Assembly: GCA_013178295.1 (NCBI GenBank)
Contig: JABLWW010000008.1
Coordinates: 124,001 to 188,000 of the forward strand
From: Anaerolineae bacterium
GTDB taxonomy: Bacteria; Chloroflexota; Anaerolineae; Anaerolineales; Anaerolineaceae
DNA length: 64,000 nucleotides
Reading direction: 5' to 3'
Below the pieces are notes generated by a model, which did no database searches, was not told the DNA's origin, and worked only from the letters and a program-made list of their open reading frames with translations. The position numbers and the translations under genes are program-made. Shown here piece by piece: positions 37,165-59,274 of this stretch; the first letter of the stretch is position 1, and every line of letters starts with the position of its first letter.

Positions 37165-38046
37165 GTGAGTGCAGTATCATCGGGTGTACATCCCCGGTTG
37201 ATCCAGGCGCGCTCCATCAGCCGTGTGGTATGGGAACATCTGGGCGCTCTGCCGCAGTTTGTCAGTCTTCTGGGGTGTTTTGAGCGCAGCATTGACCTGC
37301 TCGCGGGTGAAGAGGTGATTGCGCTTGTAACCCCGCAGATAGACAATGGCCCTTTTTATATTGTGGTGGATCGTTTGCCGGATAAGCCTTTGCCTGAACA
37401 GATAAAAGCTGACTGGTATGGACAAGTATTATCTCTTGGTGAGTGGACGATAGATTTTTCGCTGCCGCCACCGGTGTGGGAGCCGCGTGTCAACTGGGAG
37501 GAGGTTGCTCTTTCCCGTCAGTCGCTTGCGTGCTTGCGAAAGCTGGTGCAGGAGGACGCCAAGCGGCGAGGCTGTCACTCACTTTTCAGCGCGGTTGTGC
37601 TGGGGAGCGTACCGCCGCTGGCGGAGGAGTTGGGTAAAGCTTTATCCGCTCTGGACATTGATGGGGTTTCATTCTGTGCTGCCAGGATAGCCGGTCTTGG
37701 GATGGGGTTGACGCCTGCTGGTGATGACTTTCTTGCCGGTGTGATGCTGGCGTTGCAAGCCTATGCTGCATTACCCGCCGAGCAGAAGAGAATGCTTTTA
37801 CAGGCGGTGTATACTGCTGCGGAGAACCGTTCGACGCGCTTGAGTAGAGCCTATCTCAAGGCAGCCTACGAGGGTATGGCGGATGCACACTGGCATCGTC
37901 TGTTGTATTCCCTGACAGATGGGAGAGAGACCGTTCTCTGCAAGACGGTAGCAGAGGTGCTGCATTTTGGGGAGACCTCGGGCTTGGATATGGCAAACGG
38001 CTTTGTCTGGGTGTTTGACGTGTTTGAGATACCACAACCTGTGTGA
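37165..38046 (+). CDS. DUF2877 protein, AllH-like (oxamate carbamoyltransferase subunit)
   Basis: 293 residues from GTG 37165, which has GAGGAG 5 bp upstream; a TTG at 37153 is in frame but would include that site. The family motif GLGMGLTPAGDDFLAGVMLA is present (about 178-197). In E. coli the equivalent protein (YlbF/AllH) works with FdrA/AllF and YlbE/AllG as the oxamate carbamoyltransferase, converting oxalurate and phosphate to oxamate and carbamoyl phosphate (established for that system). Homologues of both partners are at 39464 and 41258, so the set of three is complete in this window. Confidence 0.83.
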   Translation: MSAVSSGVHPRLIQARSISRVVWEHLGALPQFVSLLGCFERSIDLLAGEEVIALVTPQIDNGPFYIVVDRLPDKPLPEQIKADWYGQVLSLGEWTIDFSLPPPVWEPRVNWEEVALSRQSLACLRKLVQEDAKRRGCHSLFSAVVLGSVPPLAEELGKALSALDIDGVSFCAARIAGLGMGLTPAGDDFLAGVMLALQAYAALPAEQKRMLLQAVYTAAENRSTRLSRAYLKAAYEGMADAHWHRLLYSLTDGRETVLCKTVAEVLHFGETSGLDMANGFVWVFDVFEIPQPV

Positions 38047-38103
38047 AGGCGGGCAAAGAGCTGTCCTGTGCTTTTTGTCAGTCATACGCTGGAGGATTGT
38101 CTT

Positions 38104-38133
38104 TTGTATTTTTGTGTATTCAGTGGTTATAAT
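38104..38133 (+). promoter_or_regulatory. Candidate promoter upstream of the cyclase gene
   Basis: TTGTAT (38104-38109), 18 bp spacer, TATAAT (38128-38133), about 70 bp before the ATG at 38207 in a 160 bp gene-free gap. Confidence 0.45.
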
Positions 38134-38206
38134 AAATGCAAATTGTAGAAATTGGCGGATGTGCTTTCCGTCATCTTAATTTTTGATTTGAGAAGGAGAT
38201 AAATCT

Positions 38207-39088
38207 ATGAAACTCGTTGATCTCACCATCCCTTTGGGAATTGGCACACCTGCTTGGCCGACTTACGAGCCACTGCAGGTTAAGTATTTCAAACGTCTGG
38301 CGCCCAATGGCGCCAATGGTCAGTTGCTGACCCATTCCAATCATCTTGGAACGCATCTGGATGGCGAAATTCATTTCTATACGCCGGGCAAAGATATGGC
38401 GGAGTTAGACTTTGATTTTCTGTATCATGAGGCCTCCATTGTTGATCTCTCGGATGTGGTGGCTGACTATGATGTCTACACGTCGGAGATGATCGAATCA
38501 AAGGTCAAGGTTCAAGAAGGTGATATCCTCATCATCCATACAGGTTTCCATCATTTTGGCTGGGATATGCCTACTGCCAATGAGGTGCGTTACATGGTAC
38601 AGCATCCGGGTCCCGATCGTGAATTTGCCGAATGGGCAAAGAAGAAAAAGCTGCGCTGGATTGGTGTGGACTGTGGCTCCGCAGATCACCCCATGAATAC
38701 CATCATTCGCCAGTGGATGCCGCGCCAGGCAAAACAGGCAGAGACCCATTTCAAGCACAAATATGGCAAAACGCTGGAAGAGTTCTTTACTGACGATAAA
38801 TATCAGCTGATGCATATCGAAATGTTCCCGGATGGCATAATCCATGCCGAGTGTCTGGCAGGGGATATTGACTTGCTGCTCAATCGTCGTGTTACCGTGG
38901 GGATGTTCCCCTGGCGTTTTGTGGATGGAGAGTCCAGCATCGCGCGTTGCGCTGCTTTTGTCGAGGATGCAGAGTATGCCGAGCTGATGAAAAAGAAAGA
39001 AAAAATGCCCAAGACGAAATTTGGGGATGCTTATGACCCCAAACATGTTGAGAACCTGAATAAACAGGTCATGGCGCGCAAATACTAA
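38207..39088 (+). CDS. Cyclase-family (kynurenine formamidase-like) metal hydrolase
   Basis: 293 residues, preceded by GAAGGAGAT. Cyclase-family fold: VDLTIPLGIGTPAWP at the N-terminus, metal motif SNHLGTHLDGEIHF (about 44-57; His, His, Asp and a later His), GDILIIHTGFH, and GVDCGSADHPMN (about 152-163). Enzymes of this superfamily open cyclic amides or hydrolyse N-formyl groups (kynurenine formamidase, isatin hydrolase). A 40-residue C-terminal tail after the core is charged. All visible metal ligands are retained, so it is probably active. It lies between allH-like and allFG-like genes, suggesting hydrolysis of a cyclic ureide or imide. Confidence 0.87.
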   Translation: MKLVDLTIPLGIGTPAWPTYEPLQVKYFKRLAPNGANGQLLTHSNHLGTHLDGEIHFYTPGKDMAELDFDFLYHEASIVDLSDVVADYDVYTSEMIESKVKVQEGDILIIHTGFHHFGWDMPTANEVRYMVQHPGPDREFAEWAKKKKLRWIGVDCGSADHPMNTIIRQWMPRQAKQAETHFKHKYGKTLEEFFTDDKYQLMHIEMFPDGIIHAECLAGDIDLLLNRRVTVGMFPWRFVDGESSIARCAAFVEDAEYAELMKKKEKMPKTKFGDAYDPKHVENLNKQVMARKY

Positions 39089-39100
39089 TTCTGTTTTTTC

Positions 39101-39463: not shown

Positions 39464-41188
39464 ATGGCAGTAATTAAAACCGAGGTTCGGGCGGGCGCAT
39501 ATTACGACTCTGCGTTCCTTATGCAGTTGCAGCGCTCGCTGGCGGGCTTGCCGGGCATTCAGGATGCCGGGGTGGTCATGGGCACCGAGTCAAACAAGGA
39601 GCTTTTGGCGCATATTAATCTGGTTTCTCCTGAATTGCAGGCGGCTAAACCGGATGATTTGGTGATTGTCGTCAGGGGTGAAACGGAGGCGGCTGCACTG
39701 GAAGCGCTGGGGAAGGTGGATGAGCTGATCTCACAACGCAAGTCGAGCGCGCCGGAGCGTGAGATGCGCGCCCTGAGCCTGGAAACGGCAGATCAGCGCT
39801 TTCCTGGTGCTGCGTGGACGCTGATTTCTGTTGCCGGGCGTTATGCCGCAGGTGTTGCCCGCGATGCACTGCGCAGGGGAAAGCATGTTTTCCTGTTCAG
39901 TGATAATGTTCCTGTTGAAGAGGAGATTGAACTCAAGAAAATTTCCTCTGAGAAGGGGTTACTGGTCATGGGGCCTGATTGCGGCACAGCGATGATTGGC
40001 GGTATTGGGCTGGGTTTTGCCAATAAAATTCGCAAAGGACCCATTGGTATTGTAGCTGCGGCGGGTACAGGCTTGCAGCACGTTGCTTCGCGCATTCACC
40101 AGCTTGGTTCGGGCATCACCTATGGGATTGGCACAGGCGGACGCGATCTTTCTGAGAAGGTGGGGGCGACAACTTTTCGCCAGGGGATAGATATTCTCAG
40201 CCGTGACCCCGAGACCAAGGTGATTGTTCTGGTGTCCAAACCTCCGGCGCCTAAAGTGGCTGAAGAGGTGCTGCAAATGGCGAAGCGTGCCGGAAAACCG
40301 GTGGTTGTTTCCATGGTCAGCCGACCGGTAAATGCTCGTCGGGTAGGAAACCTTCACTTTGCCACCACGATGGATGAAGCGGCTGAGCTGGCGGTTGCAC
40401 TGGTCAAGGGCGTTTCTGGCAAGACGGAGGATTTGAAGCTGGAGCGTTTTGCCAGCGGGCAGCGCTATCTGCGCGGTTTGTTCTCTGGCGGCACACTGGC
40501 TTATGAAGCTCAATATATTCTGCAAAATTATTTACCTAAAGTGTGGGCAAATGCGCCGCTTAATAAAGAAAACAAGCTGCCCAATTCATTTGTCAGCCAG
40601 GAGCATACGATTGTAGACCTTGGTGAGGACGAGTTTACTGTTGGGCGTTTGCATCCGATGATGGACAATGAATTGCGCATCCGCCGTTTGATGGAAGAAG
40701 CCAATGATCCCTCTGTAGCGGTTATCATGTTAGATGTGGTCATTGGTTTTGGCTCGCACCCTGACCCCGCCAGTGAACTGGCGCCTGCCATTGCCAAGGC
40801 AAAAGAGACTGCGGCGAAAGCTGGTCGTTATCTGGAAGTTGTGGCAGTGGTTACCGGCACCGATGAGGACCCGCAAGACTTGAACAAGCAGATTGAGTTG
40901 CTTAAAGGCGCTGGCGCCTGGGTTTCGACCAGCAATGAGGAGATGGTCAGCTATGCGGGGCGCTTGCTGGAAGCGTTGAACAGCGCTGAGCAGGCTGGGG
41001 TGCCGGCGTTTACCCCAGCCGATTTGTCAGTGCTGCAAAAGCCGCTTGCAGCCATTAATCTTGGACTGGAGTCGTTTGCTGCCAACCTGGAAGCTCAAGA
41101 AGCGCCAGTGGTGCATGTGGAATGGCGCCCCCCCGCCGGTGGTAATGAAAAGTTGATCTCCATTCTTGAGAAGATGAAGGCAAAATAA
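39464..41188 (+). CDS. FdrA-family protein, AllF-like (oxamate carbamoyltransferase subunit)
   Basis: 574 residues with the FdrA pattern: an N-terminal domain (1-90), then a succinyl-CoA-synthetase-alpha-like part with VMGPDCGTAMIGGIGLGFAN (about 166-185), GIVAAAGTGLQHVASRIHQL, GIGTGGRDLSEKVGA, and a second domain beginning near RGLFSGGTLAYEAQ (about 339) followed by IVDLGEDEFTVGRLHPMMD. GGAGG is 5 bp before ATG. In E. coli FdrA (AllF) is part of the three-protein oxamate carbamoyltransferase; AllG-like follows after 69 bp and AllH-like is upstream. Catalysis of oxalurate phosphorolysis, or of an analogous carbamoyl transfer, is the likely role. Confidence 0.9.
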   Translation: MAVIKTEVRAGAYYDSAFLMQLQRSLAGLPGIQDAGVVMGTESNKELLAHINLVSPELQAAKPDDLVIVVRGETEAAALEALGKVDELISQRKSSAPEREMRALSLETADQRFPGAAWTLISVAGRYAAGVARDALRRGKHVFLFSDNVPVEEEIELKKISSEKGLLVMGPDCGTAMIGGIGLGFANKIRKGPIGIVAAAGTGLQHVASRIHQLGSGITYGIGTGGRDLSEKVGATTFRQGIDILSRDPETKVIVLVSKPPAPKVAEEVLQMAKRAGKPVVVSMVSRPVNARRVGNLHFATTMDEAAELAVALVKGVSGKTEDLKLERFASGQRYLRGLFSGGTLAYEAQYILQNYLPKVWANAPLNKENKLPNSFVSQEHTIVDLGEDEFTVGRLHPMMDNELRIRRLMEEANDPSVAVIMLDVVIGFGSHPDPASELAPAIAKAKETAAKAGRYLEVVAVVTGTDEDPQDLNKQIELLKGAGAWVSTSNEEMVSYAGRLLEALNSAEQAGVPAFTPADLSVLQKPLAAINLGLESFAANLEAQEAPVVHVEWRPPAGGNEKLISILEKMKAK

Positions 41189-41257
41189 TTTAACAATGCT
41201 GCTCGCGCATGGAAGTTACAAGTGTCCTGCCGGGCAGTAATTTTTTTGGAGGATAGA

Positions 41258-42508
41258 ATGGCAGTTGATATTGAAAAAGCAAATCAGCAGGTTGTTGAAC
41301 GGATGATGGAAGCCCGTCCGGTGGTGGTAGGTGTTGGAAAGGCGCGCGATGTTATCCCCGGCATGAAGGATAACCTGTTACTACATGCTGGACCGCCAAT
41401 CACATGGGATCGCATGGCGGGGCCAGTCAAAGGAGCGGCTTATGGAGCACTGATTTTTGAAGGCATGGCAAAGGATGACAAAGAAGCTCAGGCGCTGATC
41501 GAGTCGGGGAAAATAGAGTTCGCCCCCTGTCACCATTATGGCTCAGCAGGTCCCATGGCGGGGTTGATGTCTCCCTCTATGATGGTATATATTGTTGAAG
41601 ATAAGGTCAGCGGGCGCAAGTGCTTTTCTGGGTTGAATGAAGGGCGCGGCAAGGTGTTGCGTATGGGTGCCTACAGTCCGGATGTGATTGCCAAGCTCAA
41701 ATGGATGAATGATGTCTTGGGGCCAACGCTGGATGCCGCTCTTAAGGACTGTGGCGGAATTGACTTGCGGGCTTTGTTGGGCAAGGCGTTGCACATGGCA
41801 GATGATGGGCATAACCGCCTGGACGCGGCATCAATTTTATATACGACCCAGTTGGCGCCCTCGATTGTCAAAACGGCGAAGGATACCAATACCGCGGCTG
41901 AGGTGATCAAGTTCTTGGGCGATAATGCGCTCAGCATTCTCAATCCGGTCATGGCGGGCTGCAAGGCGATGTGCGATGCTGGACATGGTGTTGAAGGCAG
42001 CACGATTGTTACTGTCATGGCGCGTAATGGCACCGATTTTGGTATTCGGGTGAGTGGCTTGGGCGACCGCTGGTTTACTGGCCCAGCTGGGAAGGTCAAG
42101 GCGCTTTACTTCCCTGGTTTTACCGAGAAGGATGCCAATCCAGATATTGGCGACAGTGTGATTACCGAAACGGCGGGGATTGGCGGTTTTGCCATGGCAA
42201 CCGCACCAGCCATTGTTACCTTTATCGGCGGTGTGGCAAAGGATGCAATTAACACCACACTGGATATGTATGAGATCTGCTACACAGAGCATAAGTACTT
42301 TACGATTCCGTTCCTTGATTTTCGTGGCACGCCGACGGGGATTGACATCCGCAAGGTGGTTGAGAAGGGTATCCTACCGCGGGTGAATACAGGGGTTGCT
42401 CATAAAGATCCGGGTGTTGGTCAGGTTGGCGCTGGCGTGGTTACACCTCCGGCAAATATCTTTGAAGATGCCCTGGTGGCTTTTGCCGAAAAGTATGGAT
42501 ATGCGTAA
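41258..42508 (+). CDS. DUF1116 protein, YlbE/AllG-like (oxamate carbamoyltransferase subunit)
   Basis: 416 residues from ATG 41258, with TTGGAGGATAG just before it; the frame is open back to 41222 without a site. Family-typical stretches: PVVVGVGKARDVIPGM near the start, LLHAGPPITWDRMAGPVKGA (about 44-63), FAPCHHYGSAGPMAGL, DGHNRLDAASILYTTQLAP, VARNGTDFGIRVSG-like (about 250) and DPGVGQVGAGVVTPP near the end. The middle is hydrophobic but not clearly membrane-spanning. Second subunit of the AllFGH-type enzyme; directly followed by the double-cyclase gene, so the two activities are likely used together. Confidence 0.9.
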   Translation: MAVDIEKANQQVVERMMEARPVVVGVGKARDVIPGMKDNLLLHAGPPITWDRMAGPVKGAAYGALIFEGMAKDDKEAQALIESGKIEFAPCHHYGSAGPMAGLMSPSMMVYIVEDKVSGRKCFSGLNEGRGKVLRMGAYSPDVIAKLKWMNDVLGPTLDAALKDCGGIDLRALLGKALHMADDGHNRLDAASILYTTQLAPSIVKTAKDTNTAAEVIKFLGDNALSILNPVMAGCKAMCDAGHGVEGSTIVTVMARNGTDFGIRVSGLGDRWFTGPAGKVKALYFPGFTEKDANPDIGDSVITETAGIGGFAMATAPAIVTFIGGVAKDAINTTLDMYEICYTEHKYFTIPFLDFRGTPTGIDIRKVVEKGILPRVNTGVAHKDPGVGQVGAGVVTPPANIFEDALVAFAEKYGYA

Positions 42509-42542
42509 ACCGTTCAAATAGATATTCTCTAAGGAGTTAATG

Positions 42543-44219
42543 ATGGATCGCGAAGCATTTATCAAAATGATGGCTGATGCCAAGATGTATGACCTGACCC
42601 AGGGATGCAGTATCTTTACGCCTCCCTGGCCGGGCGAAAAAGCGCTTGAGGTGCATTTCTTCAAACGCCTCACTGGAGCGTATGGCGGCGGACAGGGTGC
42701 GAATGGGCAGATCCTTAACTGGAGCAATACGGTGGGTACGCATCTGGTTGGCGAAACAGCTTTCCACTCTGGCGGGCGCGCGATTTCGGATATCCCACTT
42801 AAAGACCTTAGCGGTCCCGGTGTCATTGTGGATATTTCCGATATGGTGTCGGACTATAGCCTCTATACCCCTGAGATGATCATGAAGAAAGCCACTGTCA
42901 AGAAGGGCGATATTTTGATCATCAACACGGGCTATCATCGCTATTCGTGGGATTTACCGGACACCTATAATCCTAACGCGCAGGGCGGGGTGGAATCTAA
43001 AGAGTTTGGTTTTTATGTGCGCCATCCGGGTCCCTCGCCGGATTTCTTCAAGTGGGCGTTGGATATGAAATTGAAGCTGATCGGTGTGGATTGCGGCTGT
43101 GCTGAGCACCCCATGAATACGCCGATTCGCCGTATGCACGAAAATCATTTCCAGGCTGCTGAAGCAAAGCTGAAAAAGGAATATGGCAAGAGCTGGGACG
43201 AGATGTTCCCACAGGATGAATACTATGAAATGACCCACATCACCATGCCCAAGGCGCATTTGCTCTTTGTGGAAGCCATTGTGGGAGAAATTGACAAGCT
43301 CAAAAACCAGCGTGCCTGGATCACCGTTCAGCCCATCCCCTTCATGGAAGTTGAGGCAGCATGGGCGCGGGTGGTTGCCTGGCAGGCGCCGGATGGAATG
43401 AGCGAGGAAGCTTTCTTCCAGGCAATGGAATCTGCTGAGATGCTTGACCTGACGGTTCCATTTAGCGTTCGCTCGCCGCAATGGGCAAATTATGTTCCGC
43501 TTTCGGTAACGTATACCAAGCGCGTTGGCGGACAGCATTTTGGCATGGGGCGCAACGGCTCGATTTGTAATGCTTCTATTCACCTGGCGACGCACATGGA
43601 TGGTGAAAAGCACTTCTGGCCTGCTGGGCGCACCATTGGCGAGACGCCGCTGGAAGAGTGGGTTGGCCCTGGCGTGGTTGCCGATATTTCGAGCATGGTA
43701 AGCAATTCCAGTGTATATACCCCCGATATGATTAAATCGGTGGTGGATATTCGCCCCGGAGATATTCTGATTATTAAGACCGGCTGGTATAAATATGGCT
43801 GGTGCAGTGAGGACTCTGACGAGTTTCGCTATATGATTAAACATCCGGGTCCTTCACCCGACTTTGCCAAGTGGGCTTACGATATGAAGATCAAGTGGAT
43901 TGGTGTGGACTGTGTGGCAGCCGATCATCCCATGAACACCATTCAGAGGCTCTGGCATCCCAAGACCTTTGCCGAAGCCAATGCCAAGCTCAAGAGAGAT
44001 TTTGGCAAAGACTGGGATGAGATGTTCCCACTGGATCAGTATTATCAGGACATGCACCTGAATCTCTTCCCGCATCATATTGTCCATGCCGAGAATCTGG
44101 GCGGACAGCTGGCGATTACCCCCAGCGGACGTTACTACATTGGCTGCTTTGTGCAAAAGGCAATGGAAGCCGAGTCGATGTGGGGACGCTTTGTTGCTTT
44201 CCGCGAAGGCAAATCGTAG
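42543..44219 (+). CDS. Double cyclase-family protein (two fused hydrolase domains)
   Basis: 558 residues from ATG 42543 (an adjacent ATG at 42540 is only 3 bp from AAGGAG, so the second fits better). Two full cyclase domains: about 1-285 and 288-558, each with its own start (MYDLTQGCSIFTPPWPG; MLDLTVPFSVRSPQW), GDILII.TG, HPGPSPDF and GVDC..A.HPMNT motifs. Domain 2 keeps the metal motif IHLATHMDGEKHF. In domain 1 the same place reads NTVGTHLVGETAF: the first His is Thr and the Asp is Val, so it may be catalytically dead. Each half is related to the single-domain cyclase at 38207. Probably one active and one structural or regulatory domain. Confidence 0.88.
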   Translation: MDREAFIKMMADAKMYDLTQGCSIFTPPWPGEKALEVHFFKRLTGAYGGGQGANGQILNWSNTVGTHLVGETAFHSGGRAISDIPLKDLSGPGVIVDISDMVSDYSLYTPEMIMKKATVKKGDILIINTGYHRYSWDLPDTYNPNAQGGVESKEFGFYVRHPGPSPDFFKWALDMKLKLIGVDCGCAEHPMNTPIRRMHENHFQAAEAKLKKEYGKSWDEMFPQDEYYEMTHITMPKAHLLFVEAIVGEIDKLKNQRAWITVQPIPFMEVEAAWARVVAWQAPDGMSEEAFFQAMESAEMLDLTVPFSVRSPQWANYVPLSVTYTKRVGGQHFGMGRNGSICNASIHLATHMDGEKHFWPAGRTIGETPLEEWVGPGVVADISSMVSNSSVYTPDMIKSVVDIRPGDILIIKTGWYKYGWCSEDSDEFRYMIKHPGPSPDFAKWAYDMKIKWIGVDCVAADHPMNTIQRLWHPKTFAEANAKLKRDFGKDWDEMFPLDQYYQDMHLNLFPHHIVHAENLGGQLAITPSGRYYIGCFVQKAMEAESMWGRFVAFREGKS

Positions 44220-44230
44220 TTTTTAATAAT

Positions 44231-44271
44231 TTGCAGACTTGCGGGTTGTATTATTGCCTGCAAGTCTGCAA
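44231..44271 (+). terminator. Hairpin after the double-cyclase gene
   Basis: TTGCAGACTTGC (44231-44242) and GCAAGTCTGCAA (44260-44271) are a perfect 12 bp inverted repeat with a 17-base loop, 11 bp after the stop. No T-run follows, so it may be a weak terminator or a processing site. Confidence 0.55.
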
Positions 44272-44286
44272 TACAGATTGCGCAAC

Positions 44287-44799
44287 ATGCTCACGGAACT
44301 GGACTGTTATCGTCATCGTTTGGATCATCTTCATCAATGGGTGATTGACCTTGTGGCAGACTTGCCGGTAGAAGTACTGAATTGGCGCCCTTTTGAAACG
44401 GGAGAACAGGCTGAGGTAAATTCTTTGGCTGTTCTGACGGCGCATATTGCCGGAACAGAGCATTTCTGGATGGCAGAAGTGATTGACCAGCAGCCGGCAA
44501 CGCGCAACCGGCAAGCAGAATTTGCCTGCTGTGCTGGGAATGCAGATGAAATGGTTCAAATACTTGAAAAAACAGCACTTGAAACCCGTGATGTATTTGC
44601 TCGTCTTTGTAATGCCGATTTGGATGATGTCCGTATGGTAGATGGGCATACAGTGTATGTGCGTTGGGCGATTACACAGGCAATCGAGCATACTGCGCTC
44701 CATTTTGGACACATGCAAATGACGTATCAAATGTTTCAGCAGGGCAAATGTAAGCCGACGCCCTTCTGGTATGCGTATTTGCCGTCAGAGGGTGTTTGA
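44287..44799 (+). CDS. DinB-family four-helix protein
   Basis: 170 residues from ATG 44287; the frame extends to 44239 but would then begin inside the hairpin. DinB/YfiT-like: a four-helix bundle with three His positions for a metal, LTAHIAGTEHFW (about 57-68) and IEHTALHFGHMQMTYQ (about 136-151). Members include mycothiol- and bacillithiol-dependent transferases and proteins of unknown activity. No Shine-Dalgarno sequence is obvious. Position between two catabolic gene sets may be incidental. Confidence 0.8.
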   Translation: MLTELDCYRHRLDHLHQWVIDLVADLPVEVLNWRPFETGEQAEVNSLAVLTAHIAGTEHFWMAEVIDQQPATRNRQAEFACCAGNADEMVQILEKTALETRDVFARLCNADLDDVRMVDGHTVYVRWAITQAIEHTALHFGHMQMTYQMFQQGKCKPTPFWYAYLPSEGV

Positions 44800-45725: not shown

Positions 45726-45741
45726 GTTGTGGAGGATAAAC

Positions 45742-46221
45742 ATGAGCAAAAAAGTAGATATCAAAGTGACGGTAAATGGAAAGCTGTATGAACGCTCTGT
45801 TGAACCTCGCATGTTGTTGAGCGATTTCATCCGTCATGAGCTGGGATTGACGGGGACGCATACAGGCTGCGAACATGGCGTGTGCGGCACTTGTACCGTG
45901 TGGTTTGACGGCGAGCCGGTGCGTTCCTGTCTGATGTTTGCAGTTCAGGCGGATGGTCATGAGGTGCATACAGTGGAAAGTCTAGGAACGCCGGACAATC
46001 TGCATCCTTTACAGCAGGCGTTTATGGAAAAGCATGCCCTTCAGTGTGGTTTTTGCACGCCGGGAATGTTGATGACTTTCGCTCACTTTATTCAGCGTCA
46101 CCCCAATCCTACGGATGAGGAAATCCGTGAGGCAATGGCAGGCAATCTTTGTCGCTGCACCGGGTATGAAAATATTGTGGAAGCGGTAAAACTGGCTGCC
46201 CAGCGGATGGCTGGAAAGTAA
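45742..46221 (+). CDS. Molybdenum hydroxylase 2Fe-2S subunit (CoxS type), set 1
   Basis: 159 residues from ATG 45742, with GGAGG 7 bp upstream. Plant-ferredoxin-type N-terminal cluster CEHGVCGTCTVWFDG with a fourth Cys in VRSC, and a C-terminal helical cluster domain with CGFCTPGML and NLCRCTGYENIV. Carries electrons from molybdenum to FAD. Sits 16 bp after the FAD subunit and 13 bp before the catalytic subunit. Confidence 0.95.
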   Translation: MSKKVDIKVTVNGKLYERSVEPRMLLSDFIRHELGLTGTHTGCEHGVCGTCTVWFDGEPVRSCLMFAVQADGHEVHTVESLGTPDNLHPLQQAFMEKHALQCGFCTPGMLMTFAHFIQRHPNPTDEEIREAMAGNLCRCTGYENIVEAVKLAAQRMAGK

Positions 46222-51037: not shown

Positions 51038-51070
51038 CATCAAAGATGATTTGTGGAGGCGGCTGAGAGA

Positions 51071-51928: not shown

Positions 51929-51936
51929 AGGAGATT

Positions 51937-52431
51937 ATGGAGAAAACAAGAAGCCAGCATTACAACTATGCTTTTGAAGCCATTCCCATCCTGTTTCACA
52001 GCCAGACAGATGGGTTTATGAAGTATCTTGAAAAAGACGGGGTGAAGTTTCTGCGTTTCTGGTGGGATCATGTGGGCGATAAGCTGGAAGAGGCACAAAG
52101 AGTCCCGTGGCGGGGACTGGACTTTGAGGTCGAACCTTTGGATGGAAAACGCAAACTGGTATGGGTTACCCTGCCAAAGCCGAGCCATGACGAGGAAGCG
52201 TATTTTCTTGCGCTTCTGGCAAGCCCTGAACAGCGTTTTGCCTGGGTGCGGCTGCCGAATACGCGGGTGTTTGTCTTGCGCCGTTGGGATAATATAGCAG
52301 AGCCGCCCCGCACGCTTTTTGGCGAACTGACCCCGCGTGCCCTGTTTCGCAAATTGGGAGAGGGAATTGAGCCAAGCAAAGAGGCTTTCAAAGAGGCTGT
52401 TCGCAGGATGGTGCGGAGGAAGGGCAAATGA
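51937..52431 (+). CDS. Conserved hypothetical protein
   Basis: 164 residues from ATG 51937, with AAAGGAG 6 bp upstream; the frame is open back to 51751 but that overlaps the NmrA gene. Soluble, basic C-terminus, rich in Trp and Phe (FLRFWWDHVGDKL), with an alpha/beta profile (LVWVTLPKPS, RFAWVRLPNTRVFVLRRW). I recognise no domain. Its stop overlaps the start of the next small membrane protein by 4 bp, suggesting the pair is made together. Confidence 0.75.
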   Translation: MEKTRSQHYNYAFEAIPILFHSQTDGFMKYLEKDGVKFLRFWWDHVGDKLEEAQRVPWRGLDFEVEPLDGKRKLVWVTLPKPSHDEEAYFLALLASPEQRFAWVRLPNTRVFVLRRWDNIAEPPRTLFGELTPRALFRKLGEGIEPSKEAFKEAVRRMVRRKGK

Positions 52432-52775
52432 AGATCGAAATTACCCCCGGCTTGATTATCACGGCGGTTGCCATGCTGATTTTTTATTTCCGTGTGGCAA
52501 TGCTGCGCGGGCGCAAGCGGCGTCTGATGCGTGAAGAAGCTTTGAAGAGACGCCGTGATAAATCAAAGGACAGTAAGAAGGCGCCTTTACCGCAAAAGGA
52601 CTTCTTCACCCCCCAGTATCAGGTGAGGAGTTGGGCGCTGGTGGGGGCATCGGTATTGCTAATGCTGGTGGGCGTGATTATGTATACTGCAAAGTGGTTC
52701 CCGTCGGCATATCAGCCCTACTGGTGGATTGCTGCAACGGCAGGCGTGCTGTTGCTGACATTTAGCATTGAATGA
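52428..52775 (+). CDS. Small membrane protein, two transmembrane segments
   Basis: 115 residues. An N-terminal hydrophobic segment (about 5-23), a very basic middle (RGRKRRLMREEALKRRRDK, about 27-45), then two C-terminal hydrophobic stretches (about 68-84 and 95-112) separated by a short Trp/Pro loop. The charge pattern places the basic part in the cytoplasm. No recognised family. Coupled by a 4 bp overlap to the preceding gene. Confidence 0.7.
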   Translation: MKIEITPGLIITAVAMLIFYFRVAMLRGRKRRLMREEALKRRRDKSKDSKKAPLPQKDFFTPQYQVRSWALVGASVLLMLVGVIMYTAKWFPSAYQPYWWIAATAGVLLLTFSIE

Positions 52776-52855
52776 AGCTGTGAAAAATTGTAAGATGATA
52801 ATACCGCACAGATAGTAAAAATTTTTCATCTGAACTCTGAAAGGTCTATGTTGTG

Positions 52856-54100
52856 ATGAACACTTCAATTTCTCTTATCCCTCAGAATGTGGTTGATCAT
52901 CTCAGAGAACTTCATGCACTGACAGGCAATGCTGCTGGGTCACAGCGGCTTGCATGGACGGGAACCTGGGGCACAGCGCGCGATTGGCTGCGCCAAAAGC
53001 TGGAGCAACTGCCGGTGGAAATAGAAGTTGATGAAGCTGCTAACACCTGGGCGACACTTAAAGGGGCTTCTCCAAAGGCGCTGGTGATGGGCAGCCATAT
53101 CGATTCGGTCGCCAATGGCGGCTGGCTGGATGGCTGTTTGGGGGTTGTTACTGCTCTGGAAGTGCTGCGTCATCTTGCCGCCCAGGGTGTACCGCCGGTT
53201 ACGGTTCGTTTGGTCAATTGGGCGGATGAAGAGGGAGCACGTTTTGGGCGCAGTCTTTTTGGCGCCAGCGCTGTAAGTGGCAACTTTGATCCCGATGAGC
53301 TTCGTAAACTTACGGACAAAGAGGGCGTCAGGCTTGTGGACGCGGTGGCTAAATTTGGCGTTGACCTTGACCGTGCCAAAGAAGCTGGCAGGCAGCTTAA
53401 AAACACTGCGGCTTATCTTGAACTGCATATTGAGCAAGGTCCTGTGCTGGAGAGCCTGAATATGCCGCTTGGTGCTGTTTTGGGTACTTTGGGTGTTGAG
53501 CGGCACAAAATTACTTTTACAGGACAAACGGCACATGCTGGCTCAACACCAATGGAAATGCGCCGCGATGCGCTGGCGGCCGCCGCCAGACTTGAGCTTG
53601 AGATACGTGAAATTGCCAAGCGTCATGGTGGTGTGTGTACTATGGGGGGCGTTTTTACCCGCCCTGGCATTGTTACTGCGGTCGTTGGGCAGTGCGATGC
53701 TTTGCTCGATCAGCGTCATCTTGACGCGCCAACGCTGGCGCGTATGTTGCAAGAGGCAAAAGAAGCCAGCCAGCGTTTTGCGCAGGAGGAGAAGGTGGAT
53801 GTAGAATGGCAGCGTTTGTGGCAGATTGACCCGATCTTCTTCCACCCCGATTTAGTTGCCCTGTGTGAAGAATCGATCCGCGAAACCTGTGGTGTGGTGC
53901 ATCGCCTGCCCAGTGGACCCTTGCATGACGCAGCGGAGGTCGCCCGCGCCGGTGTTCCTACTGTGATGATGTTTGCCCAAAGTCTGTATGGTCTGTCTCA
54001 CACTAAAGAAGAGGACACACGCGAAGAGCATTTGCTGTTTGCTGTTGAGGCTTTTGACCGCCTGGCGGCGAAAACAATAGATTGGATTTTGAAGCACTAG
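52856..54100 (+). CDS. M20-family amidohydrolase (allantoate amidohydrolase / N-carbamoyl-amino-acid hydrolase)
   Basis: 414 residues from ATG 52856 (a GTG at 52853 is adjacent). All metal-site motifs of the hydantoinase/carbamoylase group of M20 are present: GSHIDSVANGGWLDGCLG (about 80-97), NWADEEGARFG (about 121-131), LELHIEQGPVLE (about 186-197), GQTAHAGSTPM (about 222-232), and LPSGPLHDAAE with SHTKEED near the C-terminus. It hydrolyses an N-carbamoyl (ureido) group to amine, CO2 and ammonia, or allantoate to ureidoglycine. The hydantoinase gene follows after 17 bp, the classic pairing of ring opening and decarbamoylation. Confidence 0.9.
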   Translation: MNTSISLIPQNVVDHLRELHALTGNAAGSQRLAWTGTWGTARDWLRQKLEQLPVEIEVDEAANTWATLKGASPKALVMGSHIDSVANGGWLDGCLGVVTALEVLRHLAAQGVPPVTVRLVNWADEEGARFGRSLFGASAVSGNFDPDELRKLTDKEGVRLVDAVAKFGVDLDRAKEAGRQLKNTAAYLELHIEQGPVLESLNMPLGAVLGTLGVERHKITFTGQTAHAGSTPMEMRRDALAAAARLELEIREIAKRHGGVCTMGGVFTRPGIVTAVVGQCDALLDQRHLDAPTLARMLQEAKEASQRFAQEEKVDVEWQRLWQIDPIFFHPDLVALCEESIRETCGVVHRLPSGPLHDAAEVARAGVPTVMMFAQSLYGLSHTKEEDTREEHLLFAVEAFDRLAAKTIDWILKH

Positions 54101-54117
54101 ACGGAGTAAGATGCAAG

Positions 54118-55530
54118 ATGAAAACGTTAATCAAATCAGGCACAATTGTTACGGCTTCCGACACGCTTAAGGCAGATATTCTTATTGAGGATGAAAAGAT
54201 TGCGCTGATGGGCACTGACCTGCCGGCAGATGGAGCGCAGGTTGTGGACGCGCAGGGCAAGCTTGTCATGCCAGGCGGCATTGATGTGCACGTTCACTTT
54301 GATATGCCGTTTTTTGCCACCTTTTCATCGGATGATCATTATACGGGGAGTAAGGCAGCTGCCTTTGGTGGCACCACCACATACCTGGATTTTGTGCCTT
54401 TGGAAGGCGATTCGCCGCGCGCCAGCGTAGAAGCTTGGGGTAAAAAAGCCGAAAAGTCAGTGATTGACTATGGGTTTCACATTATGCTTTCCCGCTGGAA
54501 CCCAGCCGTTGAAGCTGAAATCCCCGGTCTGGTGAAAGATGGGGTTACCAGTCTCAAGGTGTTTACTGCTTATGAATCTCTGCGCATTTCGGATGCGGCG
54601 ATTTTTCAGGTGATGCGTTCTGCCAAAAAACACGGTTTGCTGACCATGTTGCACGCTGAGGGTGGCGAGGTGATTGACGTATTAATTGCTGAAGCGCTGG
54701 CGGCAGGACATACCACGCCGGAATACCATGCTCTGACACATCCGGCATGGGGGGCGGTGGGTGCGACGATGAAAGCCTGCTCACTGGCTGCTCAGGCGGA
54801 AACGCCTTTGTACATCGTGCACATGAACGCCGCAGGCGAAATGGATATGCTCAAATATGCCCGTGAGCATGGTGTGCCCGTGATGGGTGAGACCTGTCCG
54901 CAATATCTGTTTTTTGGCATTGACGATTTGCGCCGCCCGGATGGGGCAAAGTGGGTCTGCTCGCCGCCAGTGCGCTCGCCGGAGGATAATGCCCGCGTGT
55001 GGGAGGCGCTATGTGATGGCACCTTGCAGGTCTTGTCTACAGACCACTGCCCGTTTATGTACGATGGCACGACACCGATTATGTATGAGGGCAAGCCGTA
55101 TGCCTATCCGGGCAAAGAATTGGGGAAGGATAATTTCTCAAAAATTCCCAATGGGTTGCCTGGTGTGGGCGACCGTTTGCCTGTCTTTTGGAGTGAAGCG
55201 GTCAGCAAAGGGCGTATTTCTCCCAACCAGTTTGTGGCGCTCACAGCCACAAACCCGGCAAAGATCTTTGGCTTATATCCGCGCAAAGGCACTCTGGCGC
55301 CTGGTTCAGATGCAGATATTGCCATTTGGGATGCCAATAAACGGGTAACCTATGGGGTGAAAGTTGCTCAGCATCGCACCGATTACAACTTGTATGAGGG
55401 CTGGCAGCTGGTTGGCTTTCCTGAGAAAGTGTTTTCGCGCGGGCGTTTGATTGTTGACAATGGAGAATGGCATGGTCGCCCAGGAATGGGACAATATATC
55501 CATCGCAACCCCAACCCGCCCCTTTTATGA
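54118..55530 (+). CDS. Dihydropyrimidinase/hydantoinase-type cyclic amidohydrolase
   Basis: 470 residues from ATG 54118. Metal site: HVHFDMPF (about 57-64), the carboxylated lysine in TSLKVFTAYES (about 143-153), HAEGG and HMNAAGE (about 178 and 233), and STDHCPFMY (Asp, about 312). TCPQYLFF is a family landmark. The group opens dihydropyrimidine, hydantoin or allantoin rings to N-carbamoyl acids. Allantoinases and phenylhydantoinases share these features, so the substrate is open. Functionally it should feed the M20 carbamoylase encoded just upstream. Confidence 0.92.
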   Translation: MKTLIKSGTIVTASDTLKADILIEDEKIALMGTDLPADGAQVVDAQGKLVMPGGIDVHVHFDMPFFATFSSDDHYTGSKAAAFGGTTTYLDFVPLEGDSPRASVEAWGKKAEKSVIDYGFHIMLSRWNPAVEAEIPGLVKDGVTSLKVFTAYESLRISDAAIFQVMRSAKKHGLLTMLHAEGGEVIDVLIAEALAAGHTTPEYHALTHPAWGAVGATMKACSLAAQAETPLYIVHMNAAGEMDMLKYAREHGVPVMGETCPQYLFFGIDDLRRPDGAKWVCSPPVRSPEDNARVWEALCDGTLQVLSTDHCPFMYDGTTPIMYEGKPYAYPGKELGKDNFSKIPNGLPGVGDRLPVFWSEAVSKGRISPNQFVALTATNPAKIFGLYPRKGTLAPGSDADIAIWDANKRVTYGVKVAQHRTDYNLYEGWQLVGFPEKVFSRGRLIVDNGEWHGRPGMGQYIHRNPNPPLL

Positions 55531-55588
55531 GAGGGTGAGGTGTGCTGGTGCGATGCAATCTAATTTATAAAAGCGAAAGGTAGTAGAG

Positions 55589-56446
55589 ATGCAACCATTT
55601 GACTATTACAAACCAAAAACATTTGAAGAAGCGTTTGACTACCTGACCCTCCCCGGAAAAACGGTGTTTCCCCTTGCGGGCGCTACCGATTTTATCCCCT
55701 CCTATCGTGATGGTGTGTGGCAGGCGGATGCGGTTTGCGATATTAAGGCTCTTCCGGGCGTGCGCGATTTGCGTGAAACACCAGAGGGTCTATGGGTCGG
55801 CGCTTGTGTGCTGATGAGCGAGCTGGCCCGCTCTCCGCTTGTCAGAGCACATTGGGAAGTGCTGGCGCAGGGCGCTGAGGTAGTTGGTAGCGAACAGGTG
55901 CGCAACCGGGCAACCATTGGCGGTAACATGTGCACGGCTTCACCCTGTGCGGACACCCCGCCGCCGTTGTATGTTCTGGATGCGGTGGTTGTGTTGAAAA
56001 GCAAAGCTGGCGAGCGGCGTGTGCCGGTTACCGAATTTTTTACCTTTGTGCGCAAGACAGTGGTGCAAAAGGGTGAACTGGTAACGGGAGTGATCATTCC
56101 CAAGCCGCCAGCAGGCACGGTGGGAGAGTATCACAAGCTGTCGCGCCGTCAAGGCTGTGACCTTTCTCTGGTTTCGGTGGCAGTACTTGCTGCTCCGCGC
56201 AATGGTGGGTACGACTGGCGTATTGCCCTTGGCGCAGTGGCGCCAACCCCTATCCGTGTGCCTGACGCTGAAGCGATTTTGTCAAAGGGATGGGACGCGG
56301 CGTCAATTGATGAGGCAGCCAAAGCGGCTGAAAAGACAGCCAAGCCTATCACGGATGTTCGTTCCAGCGATGTCTACCGCTACGAGATGGTGCGTAACCT
56401 TACACGCCGTGCGGTGCGTAGTGTCGCAGAAAAATTGAAGAAATAG
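55589..56446 (+). CDS. Molybdenum hydroxylase FAD-binding subunit, set 2
   Basis: 285 residues; GAAAGGTAGTAGAG before the ATG. PCMH-type FAD domain with FPLAGATDFIPSYRDG (about 28-43) and RNRATIGGNMCTASPCADTPP split over two FAD loops (about 107-127), followed by the C-terminal CO-dehydrogenase flavoprotein domain. Clearly diverged from the set 1 subunit (GATDF in place of GGQSL), closer to xanthine dehydrogenase-type FAD subunits. Starts 59 bp after the hydantoinase gene. Confidence 0.92.
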   Translation: MQPFDYYKPKTFEEAFDYLTLPGKTVFPLAGATDFIPSYRDGVWQADAVCDIKALPGVRDLRETPEGLWVGACVLMSELARSPLVRAHWEVLAQGAEVVGSEQVRNRATIGGNMCTASPCADTPPPLYVLDAVVVLKSKAGERRVPVTEFFTFVRKTVVQKGELVTGVIIPKPPAGTVGEYHKLSRRQGCDLSLVSVAVLAAPRNGGYDWRIALGAVAPTPIRVPDAEAILSKGWDAASIDEAAKAAEKTAKPITDVRSSDVYRYEMVRNLTRRAVRSVAEKLKK

Positions 56447-56460
56447 AAGGAGGCAAAGCA

Positions 56461-56931
56461 ATGCTTCACGAGATTACGTTAACAGTGAATGGCGAACAAA
56501 GAACGGTTGCGGTCAAATCGCATCATACGTTGTTGAAGGTGTTACGTGAGCAGCTAGGCATTACCAGCCCAAAGATTGGCTGTGAGAATGGCGAGTGCGG
56601 CGCGTGCACGGTTCTGATGAATGGCAAGGCAGTTAACTCCTGTCTTGTGCTTGCCGTTGAGGCGGATGGAGCTGTTATTGAAACCGTCGAAAATCTAAGC
56701 AAAGAAGGTGAACTGCATCCTTTGCAGCAAGCCTTTGTGGAGCATAATGCTATTCAGTGCGGTTTTTGTACACCGGGTATGATTATGTCAGCCAAGGGGC
56801 TGCTGGACCGTAACCCTCACCCCACTGTGGATGAGGTCAAAGAGGCTTTGGCGGGTAATCTTTGCCGTTGCACGGGGTATATCCGCATTGTAGATGCAGT
56901 GATGGATGTTGCCAAGAAAGGAGATGCGTAG
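56461..56931 (+). CDS. Molybdenum hydroxylase 2Fe-2S subunit, set 2
   Basis: 156 residues; AGAAGGAGG about 6 bp before the ATG. CENGECGACTVLMNG with a fourth Cys in VNSC forms the ferredoxin-like cluster, and CGFCTPGMIMS plus NLCRCTGYIRIVD the helical cluster. Electron-transfer subunit of the second heterotrimer, 14 bp from the FAD subunit and 3 bp from the catalytic subunit. Confidence 0.95.
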   Translation: MLHEITLTVNGEQRTVAVKSHHTLLKVLREQLGITSPKIGCENGECGACTVLMNGKAVNSCLVLAVEADGAVIETVENLSKEGELHPLQQAFVEHNAIQCGFCTPGMIMSAKGLLDRNPHPTVDEVKEALAGNLCRCTGYIRIVDAVMDVAKKGDA

Positions 56932-56934
56932 ACG

Positions 56935-59274
56935 ATGGCCGGACGAGTAGAAACTACGGAACCCGTTGGTAAGAGCGTTCCGCGTATTGACGCCTACGAG
57001 AAGGTAACAGGTGCTGTCCAATATGTAGATGATATTCCCTTTGGCCCAAACCTTCTGTATGGCAAGTTTGTGCGTAGCCCCTATGCACATGCTCTGATTA
57101 AGTCAATCAACACCAGCAAGGCATTGGCTTTGCCGGGAGTGAAGGCGGTTGTAACTGGAAAAGAAGTACCCAATCGGATCGGTCTGTATCTCAAGGATCG
57201 CTTTGTGTTTCCACTTGACCGCGTGCGTTGGATCGGGGAACCTGTTGCCGGTGTGATCGCCATCAATGAAGAAATTGCTGAAGAGGCGGCCAAACTGGTA
57301 GAGGTTGAATACGAGGAGCTTCCCGCTGTTTTTGATCCCCGCGAGGCGATTAAGCCGGATGCGCCGCTGATTCACCCCGATTTAGGGAAATATGAAGTGG
57401 TGCCGTTTATCTTTCCTGAGCCGGGAACGAACATTTCGGAGCATTTTAAGTTACGCAAGGGCGATGTGGACTCTGCCTGGAGTCAGTGCGCGGCGATTGT
57501 GGAAGATGATTTCTTTGTTCCGCAAATACAGCATGTTCCCATCGAGCCGCACTGTGCCGTTGCACGCTGGGATAAGGATGGGACGGTAACTCTGTGGGCT
57601 GCTTCGCAGTCGCCTTTTGCGCAGCGCGATTTGATTGCACAGAGTCTGGATATTCCACATGGAAACTTACGGGTGATTGCCCCCTACGTTGGCGGCGGTT
57701 TTGGCGGCAAGGCAGGTGTTTCCATTGAAGCCAATGTGGTGGCAATGTCGCGAGCAGTGCCTGGATATCCGGTCAAGGTGCGCATGACGCGCGAAGAGGA
57801 ATTTTTGGGCACCAATGTCCGTCAAAGCTGCGCGGCACATTACAAAATTGGCTGCGATAAAGATGGCAACCTGCTGGCTTATGAATGCCAGTATTACTTT
57901 GGTGGCGGTGCATATAACGAATATGGCGTCAATATTACCCGTGCCGCCGGGTATTCATGCACTGGACCGTATGATGTGCCCAATGTGAAAGGCGATTCAT
58001 ATTGTGTGTATACCAACACGCAAGTAGGCAGCGCCATGCGCGGTTTTGGTATGCCTGAAATCCACTGGGGTCTGGAACAGATGATGGACCGTCTGGCAGA
58101 AAAGATTGGCATGGACAAAGCGGAGTTCCGCCGCCGCAACTGCGTGCGCCCTGGGGATAAAATCCTCACCGGTATGACCATGCCGCAAGTTGATTTGGTA
58201 AAGTGCATTGACCTGGTGACGAAAGCCATCAACTGGGATAAAAAGGACAAACCCTCTGCTCCACATAAGAAGCGCGGCAAGGGAATAGCCATCATGTGGA
58301 AAGCCCCGGCAATGCCGCCTAACCCTGGCAGTCAGGCAATTGTGCGTTTCAATGAAGATGCTTCTGTCAACGTCTTTGTCGGTGGGCAGGAGATTGGGCA
58401 GGGCACCTTTACGGTGATGGCGCAGATGGCTGCCGAAACGCTTGGTGTGCCGTATGAATGGGTGCGCATTACGGCTAATCCGGTGGACACTAAGTACAGC
58501 CCGTATGAATGGCAGACGGTTGCCAGCCGCCTCACCTGGTCAATGGGGAATGCGGTCAAAGCGGCTGCCGAAGATGCCCGCCAGAAGATTTTGCAGGTGG
58601 TGGCGGAGTATTGGAAGGAAGACCCCAAGGATCTGGATATCAAGAACGGTGTGGTGGTGTCTTACAAGTCAGAGCGCGAGCAGTCTCTCAAGAAGATGGT
58701 GGTCTATGGATTGCCGAACGAGAATTATGAAGGCTGGCAGGGTGGGCCGATTGTGGGGTCGGGCAAATTTATGCCCACCTATGTTACCGGGCTTGACCCT
58801 GAAACCGGGCAGGGTACGCGCGCTGTGGTGCATTACACGGTTGGCGCTCAGGCGGTGGATATCGAAGTGGACACAGAGACCGGGCAGATTGAAGTTCTCA
58901 AGATCGCCAGCGCGTATGATGTTGGCAAAGCCATCAACCCTGATCTGGTCATGACCCAGATTGAAGGCGGCGCTGTGCATGGGCTGAGCGCGGCTTATGA
59001 GGGCTTTTACTTTGATGAGAGGGGCAAATTAATCAACAACAGTCTGGTGGATTATAAGATCGCCACGGTGATGGATATTCCGAAGGAGATCCACGGCGAC
59101 ATTGTTGAGACGCCCCTCGAAGATGGCCCATGGGGAGCGCGTGGTGTTGGCGAACATGTGATGGTACAGACTGCACCGGCAATTGCCAATGCAATCAGCG
59201 ATGCAGTTGGTGTGCGCATCAACACGCTGCCGCTTTCTGCTGAGAAGGTCTATCTGGCGATGATGAAAAAATAG
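56935..59274 (+). CDS. Molybdenum hydroxylase catalytic subunit, set 2 (xanthine dehydrogenase-like)
   Basis: 779 residues. VGKSVPRIDAYEKVTGAVQY at the N-terminus, molybdopterin motif PYVGGGFGGKAG (about 250), SAMRGFGMPEIHWGLEQMMD (about 366-385) with the Arg of the RGFG substrate-binding segment seen in xanthine dehydrogenase, GGQEIGQGTFTVMAQ, and the catalytic Glu in RGVGEHVMVQTAPAIANAI (about 738-756). These agree better with purine- or N-heterocycle-oxidising enzymes than does set 1. Xanthine, hypoxanthine or a related ring imported by the NCS2 permease is a reasonable substrate. No XdhC-type maturation gene is in the window. Confidence 0.92.
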   Translation: MAGRVETTEPVGKSVPRIDAYEKVTGAVQYVDDIPFGPNLLYGKFVRSPYAHALIKSINTSKALALPGVKAVVTGKEVPNRIGLYLKDRFVFPLDRVRWIGEPVAGVIAINEEIAEEAAKLVEVEYEELPAVFDPREAIKPDAPLIHPDLGKYEVVPFIFPEPGTNISEHFKLRKGDVDSAWSQCAAIVEDDFFVPQIQHVPIEPHCAVARWDKDGTVTLWAASQSPFAQRDLIAQSLDIPHGNLRVIAPYVGGGFGGKAGVSIEANVVAMSRAVPGYPVKVRMTREEEFLGTNVRQSCAAHYKIGCDKDGNLLAYECQYYFGGGAYNEYGVNITRAAGYSCTGPYDVPNVKGDSYCVYTNTQVGSAMRGFGMPEIHWGLEQMMDRLAEKIGMDKAEFRRRNCVRPGDKILTGMTMPQVDLVKCIDLVTKAINWDKKDKPSAPHKKRGKGIAIMWKAPAMPPNPGSQAIVRFNEDASVNVFVGGQEIGQGTFTVMAQMAAETLGVPYEWVRITANPVDTKYSPYEWQTVASRLTWSMGNAVKAAAEDARQKILQVVAEYWKEDPKDLDIKNGVVVSYKSEREQSLKKMVVYGLPNENYEGWQGGPIVGSGKFMPTYVTGLDPETGQGTRAVVHYTVGAQAVDIEVDTETGQIEVLKIASAYDVGKAINPDLVMTQIEGGAVHGLSAAYEGFYFDERGKLINNSLVDYKIATVMDIPKEIHGDIVETPLEDGPWGARGVGEHVMVQTAPAIANAISDAVGVRINTLPLSAEKVYLAMMKK

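Follow-up and report, generated by a model that had tools for sequence, protein, structure and literature searches.

We describe a cluster of putative catabolic genes in a 64,000-nucleotide stretch of DNA from an Anaerolineae bacterium, hereafter the window (positions 124001-188000 of contig C20 in genome G000, a 3.95 Mb assembly that is 97.8% complete). Between positions 37153 and 59274, all on the + strand, lie genes for the three subunit families of oxamic transcarbamylase (AllF, AllG and AllH), two PF04199 cyclases (Cyc1 and Cyc2), two three-subunit molybdenum (Mo) hydroxylases (MoA and MoB), an NCS2 permease, a dihydropyrimidinase-type hydantoinase (Hyd) and an M20 amidase (Table 1). An earlier reading, made from the sequence alone, had named this set, and all the genes that it listed are present. 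It had also seen neither the usual allantoin genes nor carbamate kinase, and none was detected among the 40 window proteins searched with Pfam (30 proteins plus 10 from positions 1-27 kb, a part of all the open reading frames (ORFs)). We consider it somewhat better than an even bet that the locus serves pyrimidine catabolism, with a core that constitutes an oxidative route forming carbamoyl phosphate; its substrates and reactions are predicted from sequence throughout.

Conservation of the core

How tightly are these genes associated in other genomes? AllG is present in 71 genomes, that of the window among them, out of 400 from the phylum. Matches of at least 64% identity that span both halves of the tandem cyclase Cyc2 are found in 10 of the 400 (again counting the window's own), and in all 10 cases AllG lies on the same strand within 300 bp, the ends of the matches being ~20-285 bp away. 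Cyc2 matches at 1e-20 reach 83 of the 400 genomes in all; single-domain cyclases are commoner and frequently far from AllG. Two sets of AllG loci were then compared, 80 named loci, which are the best 80 of 533 confirmed matches, and 40 unnamed loci picked by hand from the AllG matches in the 400 phylum genomes. Both sets favour relatives of the window, and five loci occur in both (L037/L077, the near-copies L047/L122, L048/L127, L049/L109 and L050/L114). Short contigs are common among the named loci (at least 17 kb in 48 of 80), ORF picking missed AllG in five named loci and one unnamed locus, and the gene labels are best BLAST matches to a chosen reference set.

We defined the core by distance from AllG along its own strand, with limits of 2 kb for AllF, 1 kb for a cyclase and 6 kb for a Mo-hydroxylase gene. 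This arrangement is found in 49 of the 80 named and 15 of the 40 unnamed loci. The co-occurrence in Chloroflexota that the sequence-only reading had put forward as a check is borne out: 44 of the 49 named core loci belong to that phylum, the rest to Caldisericota (2), Acidobacteriota (1), Spirochaetota (1) and an unassigned lineage (1). At 16 named and 6 unnamed loci AllF-AllG interrupts the Mo gene set, with the medium and small subunit genes on one side and the large one on the other; this position ties the pair to one pathway with the Mo-hydroxylase. The linkage of these genes exceeds chance. Nineteen control regions of 20 kb, taken from the same contigs in 18 genomes and no closer than 70 kb to AllG, contain no cyclase, AllF, AllG, medium (MoM) or small (MoS) Mo subunit gene and a single large one (MoL), besides two coenzyme A (CoA) ligases, one BMP protein and one NmrA-like protein; an NmrA-like gene is labelled at 22 of the 80 named loci as against 1 of the 19 controls.

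Two main operon types can be distinguished. Type I, the Anaerolineaceae-like kind to which the window belongs, runs x241-AllF-AllG-Cyc2-MoA-CoxG-NCS2-NmrA; the window differs in that x241 is absent and AllH and Cyc1 stand upstream in its place. Type II runs XdhC-MoM-MoS-amidase-AllF-AllG-cyclase-MoL, with AllH and a CoA ligase in some members, while other operons have a nitrilase between AllF and AllG and, in some of these, a family III CoA-transferase upstream. The module AllF-AllG-Cyc1-NCS2-MoB stands alone in two loci (L052, L053), and the window therefore joins two modules that are found apart elsewhere. Intervening genes also occur: at L050 (10020-10511) AllG and the cyclase are separated by a 23S_rRNA_IVP-type protein, with ORFs of similar length at that place in several other loci, and at L132 (7942-9120) AllF and AllG are separated by a cytochrome P450, with ORFs of comparable size in L125, L131 and L141. 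Two AllG matches (G337:C1:520106 and G224:C22:128771) each contain one internal stop.

Table 1. Features of the cluster in window coordinates
Feature	Position	Strand	Evidence and remarks
AllH-like subunit (DUF2877)	37153..38046	+	PF11392 9.6e-26, 91 bits, cut-off 25, residues 180-286 only
Cyc1, single-domain PF04199 hydrolase	38207..39088	+	102 bits; complete metal motif NHLGTHLDGEIH
AllF (FdrA)	39464..41188	+	NF004760 558 bits, cut-off 433
AllG (DUF1116)	41222..42508	+	PF06545 302 bits, 3e-90; tree
Cyc2, tandem PF04199 hydrolase, two stretches	42540..44219	+	Metal motif IHLATHMDGEKH in C-terminal half, N-terminal half without it
DinB-like protein, accessory	44239..44799	+	PF12867; adjoins Cyc2/Mo in some relatives too
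MoA, FAD (medium) subunit	44850..45725	+	PF00941, PF03450
MoA, 2Fe-2S (small) subunit	45727..46221	+	PF01799, PF00111
MoA, molybdopterin (large) subunit	46235..48598	+	PF02738, PF20256; predicted uracil-type ring hydroxylase, putative substrate
CoxG-like protein	48698..49327	+	PF06240
NCS2 permease, uracil-type residues	49523..50938	+	PF00860; UraA alignment: E272, H276, E329
NmrA-like NAD(P)-binding protein	51053..51928	+	PF05368; recurs in operon
226-aa ORF	51751..52431	+	No Pfam match; recurs beside NmrA in type I relatives
Weakly cytochrome-b561-like ORF	52428..52775	+	Below Pfam cut-off; recurs beside 226-aa ORF
M20 amidase, predicted carbamoylase of reductive branch	52853..54100	+	TIGR01879 299 bits, cut-off 204
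Dihydropyrimidinase-type hydantoinase	54082..55530	+	TIGR02033 519 bits, cut-off 393
MoB, FAD (medium) subunit	55589..56446	+	Pfam search
MoB, 2Fe-2S (small) subunit	56461..56931	+	Pfam search
MoB, molybdopterin (large) subunit	56935..59274	+	XdhA-like; below all NCBIfam cut-offs listed

Protein families of the cluster

In E. coli, AllFGH was shown in PMC11326118 to convert oxalurate and phosphate reversibly to oxamate and carbamoyl phosphate. The window shares with E. coli all three subunit families and, by prediction, a reversible cleavage of an N-acylurea that forms carbamoyl phosphate; it differs in joining AllFGH to cyclase and Mo-hydroxylase genes, in the absence of carbamate kinase and allantoin genes among the 40 proteins searched and in its predicted substrate, ureidomalonate. 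In a FastTree phylogeny (duplicates included, long branches) the window AllG falls within a group of 87 of the 125 rows with support 100. Of these 87 rows, 68 have both cyclase and Mo genes nearby, 5 a cyclase, 3 a Mo gene and 11 neither; none of the four reference AllG proteins, that of E. coli among them, belongs to the group, and the E. coli rows sit on long branches, so that their own placement is unsure. The E. coli yahEFG-yahI-yahJ set also contains AllHFG paralogues and adds a carbamate kinase family protein and an amidohydrolase; unlike the window, it has no cyclase or Mo-hydroxylase annotated nearby.

AllFG proteins occur in further surroundings. On an Aminobacter plasmid (L033, 13253-17385) and a Klebsiella plasmid (L034, 10253-14385) FdrA-AllG adjoin the cyanuric acid hydrolase TrzD, with carbamate kinase next, and the AllFG enzyme there may act on carboxybiuret or biuret. 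In Peptoclostridium AllF-AllG lies near a cysteine hydrolase. From these two settings it follows that N-acylureas of more than one kind are probably handled by the AllFG family. In PMC12625717, nitrifiers whose genomes place AllFGH next to biuret hydrolase are interpreted as oxalurate users. Rhodococcus ruber pmega_2 was considered as a possible Rieske counterpart of this system and was rejected: the DUF1116 piece tested is only 30% alike, the stretches inspected have no annotated FdrA, and two of the DUF1116 genes are separated by formate dehydrogenase genes.

The window cyclases share with the PF04199 family, which includes kynurenine formamidase and isatin hydrolase, both the family assignment and the metal motif. 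The motif, HxxTHxDxxxH, is present in Cyc1 and in the C-terminal half of Cyc2 and absent from the N-terminal half. They depart from the family in the tandem form of Cyc2, with one half lacking the motif, and in the residues DGE where many single forms have DAP. Among 36 distinct tandem proteins, exactly one motif is found in 32, none in 4 and two in none. The fold of a structure model of Cyc2 matches kynurenine formamidase and isatin hydrolase at low confidence (mean predicted local distance difference test score, pLDDT, 69), and we regard the model as too weak for arguments about the active site. PF09663, the family of barbiturase and cyanuric acid hydrolase, has no match in the 97.8% complete genome of the window, and none of the 80 named or 40 unnamed AllG loci carries its label.

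Both Mo-hydroxylases comprise the full three-subunit FAD/2Fe-2S/MoCo set of the XDH family. The nearest PDB entries to the large subunit of MoA are CoxL (8uem) and quinoline 2-oxidoreductase (1t3q). Since CoxL is the best match, aerobic CO dehydrogenase was entertained for MoA and rejected; the NF040766 score (826 bits) is below the cut-off of 950, and the active-site loop at the aligned place reads VRGAGR instead of the CSFR type that we take to be the mark of CO dehydrogenase. Among solved structures, UraA is the nearest to the window permease (138 bits, with UapA at 31). Three positions of UraA, which we take to be its uracil-binding residues Glu241, His245 and Glu290, were compared across 34 operon permeases, a set that includes the window and two duplicate loci: E is kept in all 34 at the first and third positions and H in 32 at the second. 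The window permease scores below the NCBIfam uracil permease cut-off (NF007995, 209 bits vs 477).

A predicted oxidative route for pyrimidines

Genes linked to the core in relatives point to malonyl or methylmalonyl as the probable carbon product. For the amidase of the type II operons, malonamidase E2 is the top PDB match of each of the two proteins tested (146 and 178 bits). An arginine at the place of Arg158, three residues past the catalytic serine and presumably with a role in malonamidase E2, is present in 23 of 24 distinct amidases (those at 47% or above); the 24th is a 96-aa fragment. A MatB-like ligase is linked in four distinct loci (L105, L112, L114 and L122) and as a fragment in L051, and the ligase tested (from L047, the near-copy of L122) matches malonyl-CoA synthetase best in the PDB, at 402 bits vs 294 for oxalate-CoA ligase. 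In G216, the closest relative and a member of the same family, an MmdA-type carboxyltransferase, two small ORFs and OAD-beta lie between MoB and Cyc1, and in the Spirochaetales locus L156 an MmdA-type protein and a Na+-pump beta subunit stand between MoB and AllF-AllG-Cyc1. The MmdA-type proteins score below their cut-off of 999 (802 bits in G216, 790 in L156), and both beta subunits are above that of TIGR01109; at L148 the MmdA and OAD-beta labels are both present, not side by side. The window's own genome has decarboxylase genes on another contig (C5), with a carboxyltransferase 75% and an OAD-beta 74% like those of G216, and these are its only malonate-directed genes. Downstream of them (L218, 10418-11968) are two tandem copies of x241, a GNAT-fold family without a Pfam match that lies directly upstream of AllF in 15 of the 80 named loci.

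Based on these observations, we propose the following route. A UraA-type NCS2 carrier would import uracil or thymine, and a Mo-hydroxylase would hydroxylate a ring carbon adjoining nitrogen to give barbiturate or 5-methylbarbiturate. The PF04199 cyclase, as a barbiturase unrelated to PF09663, would open this ring to ureidomalonate or its methyl form. Ureidomalonate is oxalurate extended by one CH2, so that the same cleavage would give malonamate and carbamoyl phosphate; AllF-AllG-AllH, with phosphate, would carry it out by analogy with E. coli AllFGH. An amidase or nitrilase may then convert malonamate to malonate and ammonia, a ligase or CoA-transferase may form malonyl-CoA and a Na+-pumping (methyl)malonyl-CoA decarboxylase may yield acetyl- or propionyl-CoA, while carbamate kinase would recover ATP from carbamoyl phosphate. 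The two oxidase/cyclase pairs, MoA with Cyc2 and MoB with Cyc1, may serve uracil and thymine, and the hydantoinase/M20 pair would be a neighbouring reductive branch. A pyrimidine is favoured because the permease is of the uracil type, the type II amidase is malonamidase-E2-like and the linked ligase resembles malonyl-CoA synthetase. In the known oxidative pathway, as outlined in passages of PMC3758960, barbiturate is converted by barbiturase and ureidomalonase to malonate and urea. The proposed route would share the barbiturate and ureidomalonate intermediates and the malonate product of that pathway, and would differ in using a cyclase in place of PF09663 and in releasing carbamoyl phosphate by phosphorolysis where the known pathway releases urea by hydrolysis.

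A more complete version of the proposal is offered tentatively, at a little under even confidence. It would be an energy-conserving uracil/thymine route in which Mo-dependent oxidation to barbiturates is followed by a second, unrelated barbiturase of the PF04199 family with a conserved non-catalytic half, then by a distinct AllFGH clade that cleaves ureidomalonate with phosphate (a malonamate carbamoyltransferase, which would be a new activity), with ATP gained via carbamoyl phosphate and a Na+ gradient via (methyl)malonyl-CoA decarboxylation.

A number of observations weigh against the pyrimidine route. Both MoA and MoB are below every listed substrate-specific NCBIfam cut-off. The margin in favour of malonamidase E2 is modest (146 vs 135 and 178 vs 159 bits), the CoA-transferases score for oxalate and larger diacids alike, below cut-off, and the CoA ligase label is not enriched (6 of 80 named and 3 of 40 unnamed loci, 2 of 19 controls), the two control ligases being 25-26% alike and without the MatB-like motif. 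The OAD-beta label appears at 2 of the 80 named loci and at none of the 40 unnamed ones, and methylmalonyl-CoA decarboxylase is common in fermenters. The closest counterparts in the window's own genome to the operon amidase (43% over 165 residues), nitrilase (28%) and ligase (30%) are remote; the malonate evidence therefore comes from relatives only. In family f30, AllG and cyclase are more than 500 kb apart or on different contigs in 10 of the 11 genomes that have both. Of the AllG loci, 1 of the 80 named and 10 of the 40 unnamed have a gene labelled as carbamate kinase. A cyclase lies within ~6 kb of PF09663 in 11 of 18 PF09663 genomes, all 11 of family f31, and at one f31 locus (L181) an allantoinase and an allantoate amidohydrolase, above their cut-offs, are found a few kb away. 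In haloarchaea, clusters that combine a Mo-hydroxylase with a cyclase 50% like Cyc1 have an NCS2 of the QN type (xanthine/urate-like), which suggests that they act on purines; a second carrier with a YGEN/YTEN motif accompanies it.

The f31 clusters bear on the cyclase itself. The idea that PF09663 and the cyclase are interchangeable ring openers was dropped, mutual exclusion not being shown since both co-occur in this family, and for the same reason the cyclase step may differ there. The f31 PF09663 form tested matches best 5hy0, which we take to belong to a class without a known substrate. The clusters (L178-L185, not all complete) contain NCS2, a malonyl-CoA-synthase-like ligase, cyclase, Mo-hydroxylase, the PF09663 ring opener, an amidase and a cytosine-deaminase-like amidohydrolase below cut-off, and no AllFG. 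A phosphorylase-superfamily gene at L178 was tried as uridine phosphorylase and discarded, as it scores as MTA/SAH nucleosidase.

Other substrates have to be weighed. That the module oxidizes and opens a different cyclic amide, leading to another N-acylurea, seems unlikely to us: the Mo-hydroxylase large subunits, below all listed substrate-specific cut-offs, and TrzD beside FdrA-AllG on the Aminobacter and Klebsiella plasmids, by which AllFG-type proteins accompany more than one ring, leave room for such a ring, but the UraA-type binding residues and the malonate-type linked genes argue for a pyrimidine. We rate as rather improbable the scheme of the sequence-only reading, in which a hydantoin- or purine-derived ring would be oxidized to parabanate, opened by the cyclase to oxalurate and split by AllFGH into oxamate and carbamoyl phosphate. 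Isatin hydrolase, the fold relative of the cyclase in the low-confidence Cyc2 model, opens a five-membered alpha-keto lactam. The scheme also draws on the xanthine/urate-type permease of the haloarchaeal cyclase clusters, on the allantoin-type genes near the one f31 locus and on a CoA-transferase beside AllFG (L055) that scores best, below cut-off, for CoA:oxalate CoA-transferase; excerpts of PMC11326118 give oxalurate as a substrate of E. coli AllFGH. However, the window AllG lies in the strongly supported 87-row group to which E. coli AllG does not belong, and parabanate is less supported than barbiturate opening to ureidomalonate because the downstream enzymes of relatives are malonate/methylmalonate-type and the permease is uracil-type. 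The general logic of that reading, import followed by oxidation, ring opening and AllFGH, holds in the sequence of NCS2, Mo enzymes, cyclases and AllFGH. Chance co-location of genes from unrelated pathways is very improbable, for although M20 is labelled in 0 and Hyd in 11 of the 120 overlapping AllG loci and single-domain cyclases are frequently far from AllG, as in f30, the tandem cyclase adjoins AllG in 10 of 10 cases, AllF-AllG sits inside the Mo gene set at 16 named loci and the control regions are nearly empty.

What would the pyrimidine route imply? If correct, it would supply genes for the barbiturate branch of pyrimidine breakdown, a branch described as rare in passages of PMC3758960. 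Unrelated enzymes would replace the known hydrolases, the carbamoyl part of the ring would be turned into ATP and AllFGH would come to stand for a family of N-acylurea phosphorylases rather than for a single allantoin enzyme. Among the open-licence PMC papers, the matches listed (titles, starts of abstracts and passages) contain no description of AllFGH with cyclases and Mo-hydroxylases. There is a fair chance that the whole pathway is new, though each chemical step has a known parallel.

Putative reductive branch, carbamate kinase and neighbouring genes

The sequence-only reading had the hydantoinase/M20 pair handle one ring. The pair is best read as a reductive pyrimidine branch, to which dihydropyrimidinase and beta-ureidopropionase belong; it lies outside the conserved core. 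Hyd is labelled in 7 of 80 named and 4 of 40 unnamed AllG loci, M20 in 0 of 80 and 0 of 40. Five Caldilineaceae loci add a dihydropyrimidinase and a nitrilase, and the one nitrilase tested scores 199 bits against N-carbamoylputrescine amidohydrolase, 177-178 against beta-ureidopropionase and 182 against the fly homologue. Both the Hyd/M20 pair of the window and the Hyd/nitrilase pair of the Caldilineaceae would fit a reductive branch alongside the oxidative one. The PreA-like gene of the window's genome, on contig C3, is a distant relative (36% identity), and the 18 kb around it contain no PreT match.

Recovery of ATP from carbamoyl phosphate, which the sequence-only reading had envisaged, would need the carbamate kinase that is labelled in just one of the 80 named AllG loci. 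Carbamate kinase is seldom found at AllG loci, and ATP recovery is therefore not an operon feature of the clade. In the window's own genome, a carbamate kinase above cut-off is encoded on contig C17, not linked to the window cluster. It belongs to a different cluster (L170, 3395-19587), with two OTC-fold carbamoyltransferases, two pyridoxal phosphate (PLP)-dependent enzymes, a BMP-type ABC transporter and two large proteins without a Pfam match, and for this reason was rejected as proof of coupling.

Elsewhere in the window, an 858-aa ORF without a Pfam match (59480-62056) lies directly downstream of MoB, and an N_BRCA1_IG Ig-like domain protein is encoded on the - strand at 63029-63967. At the other end, positions 15-4568 carry a RuBisCO-like large-chain protein followed by genes for 2-oxoacid dehydrogenase E1 and E2.

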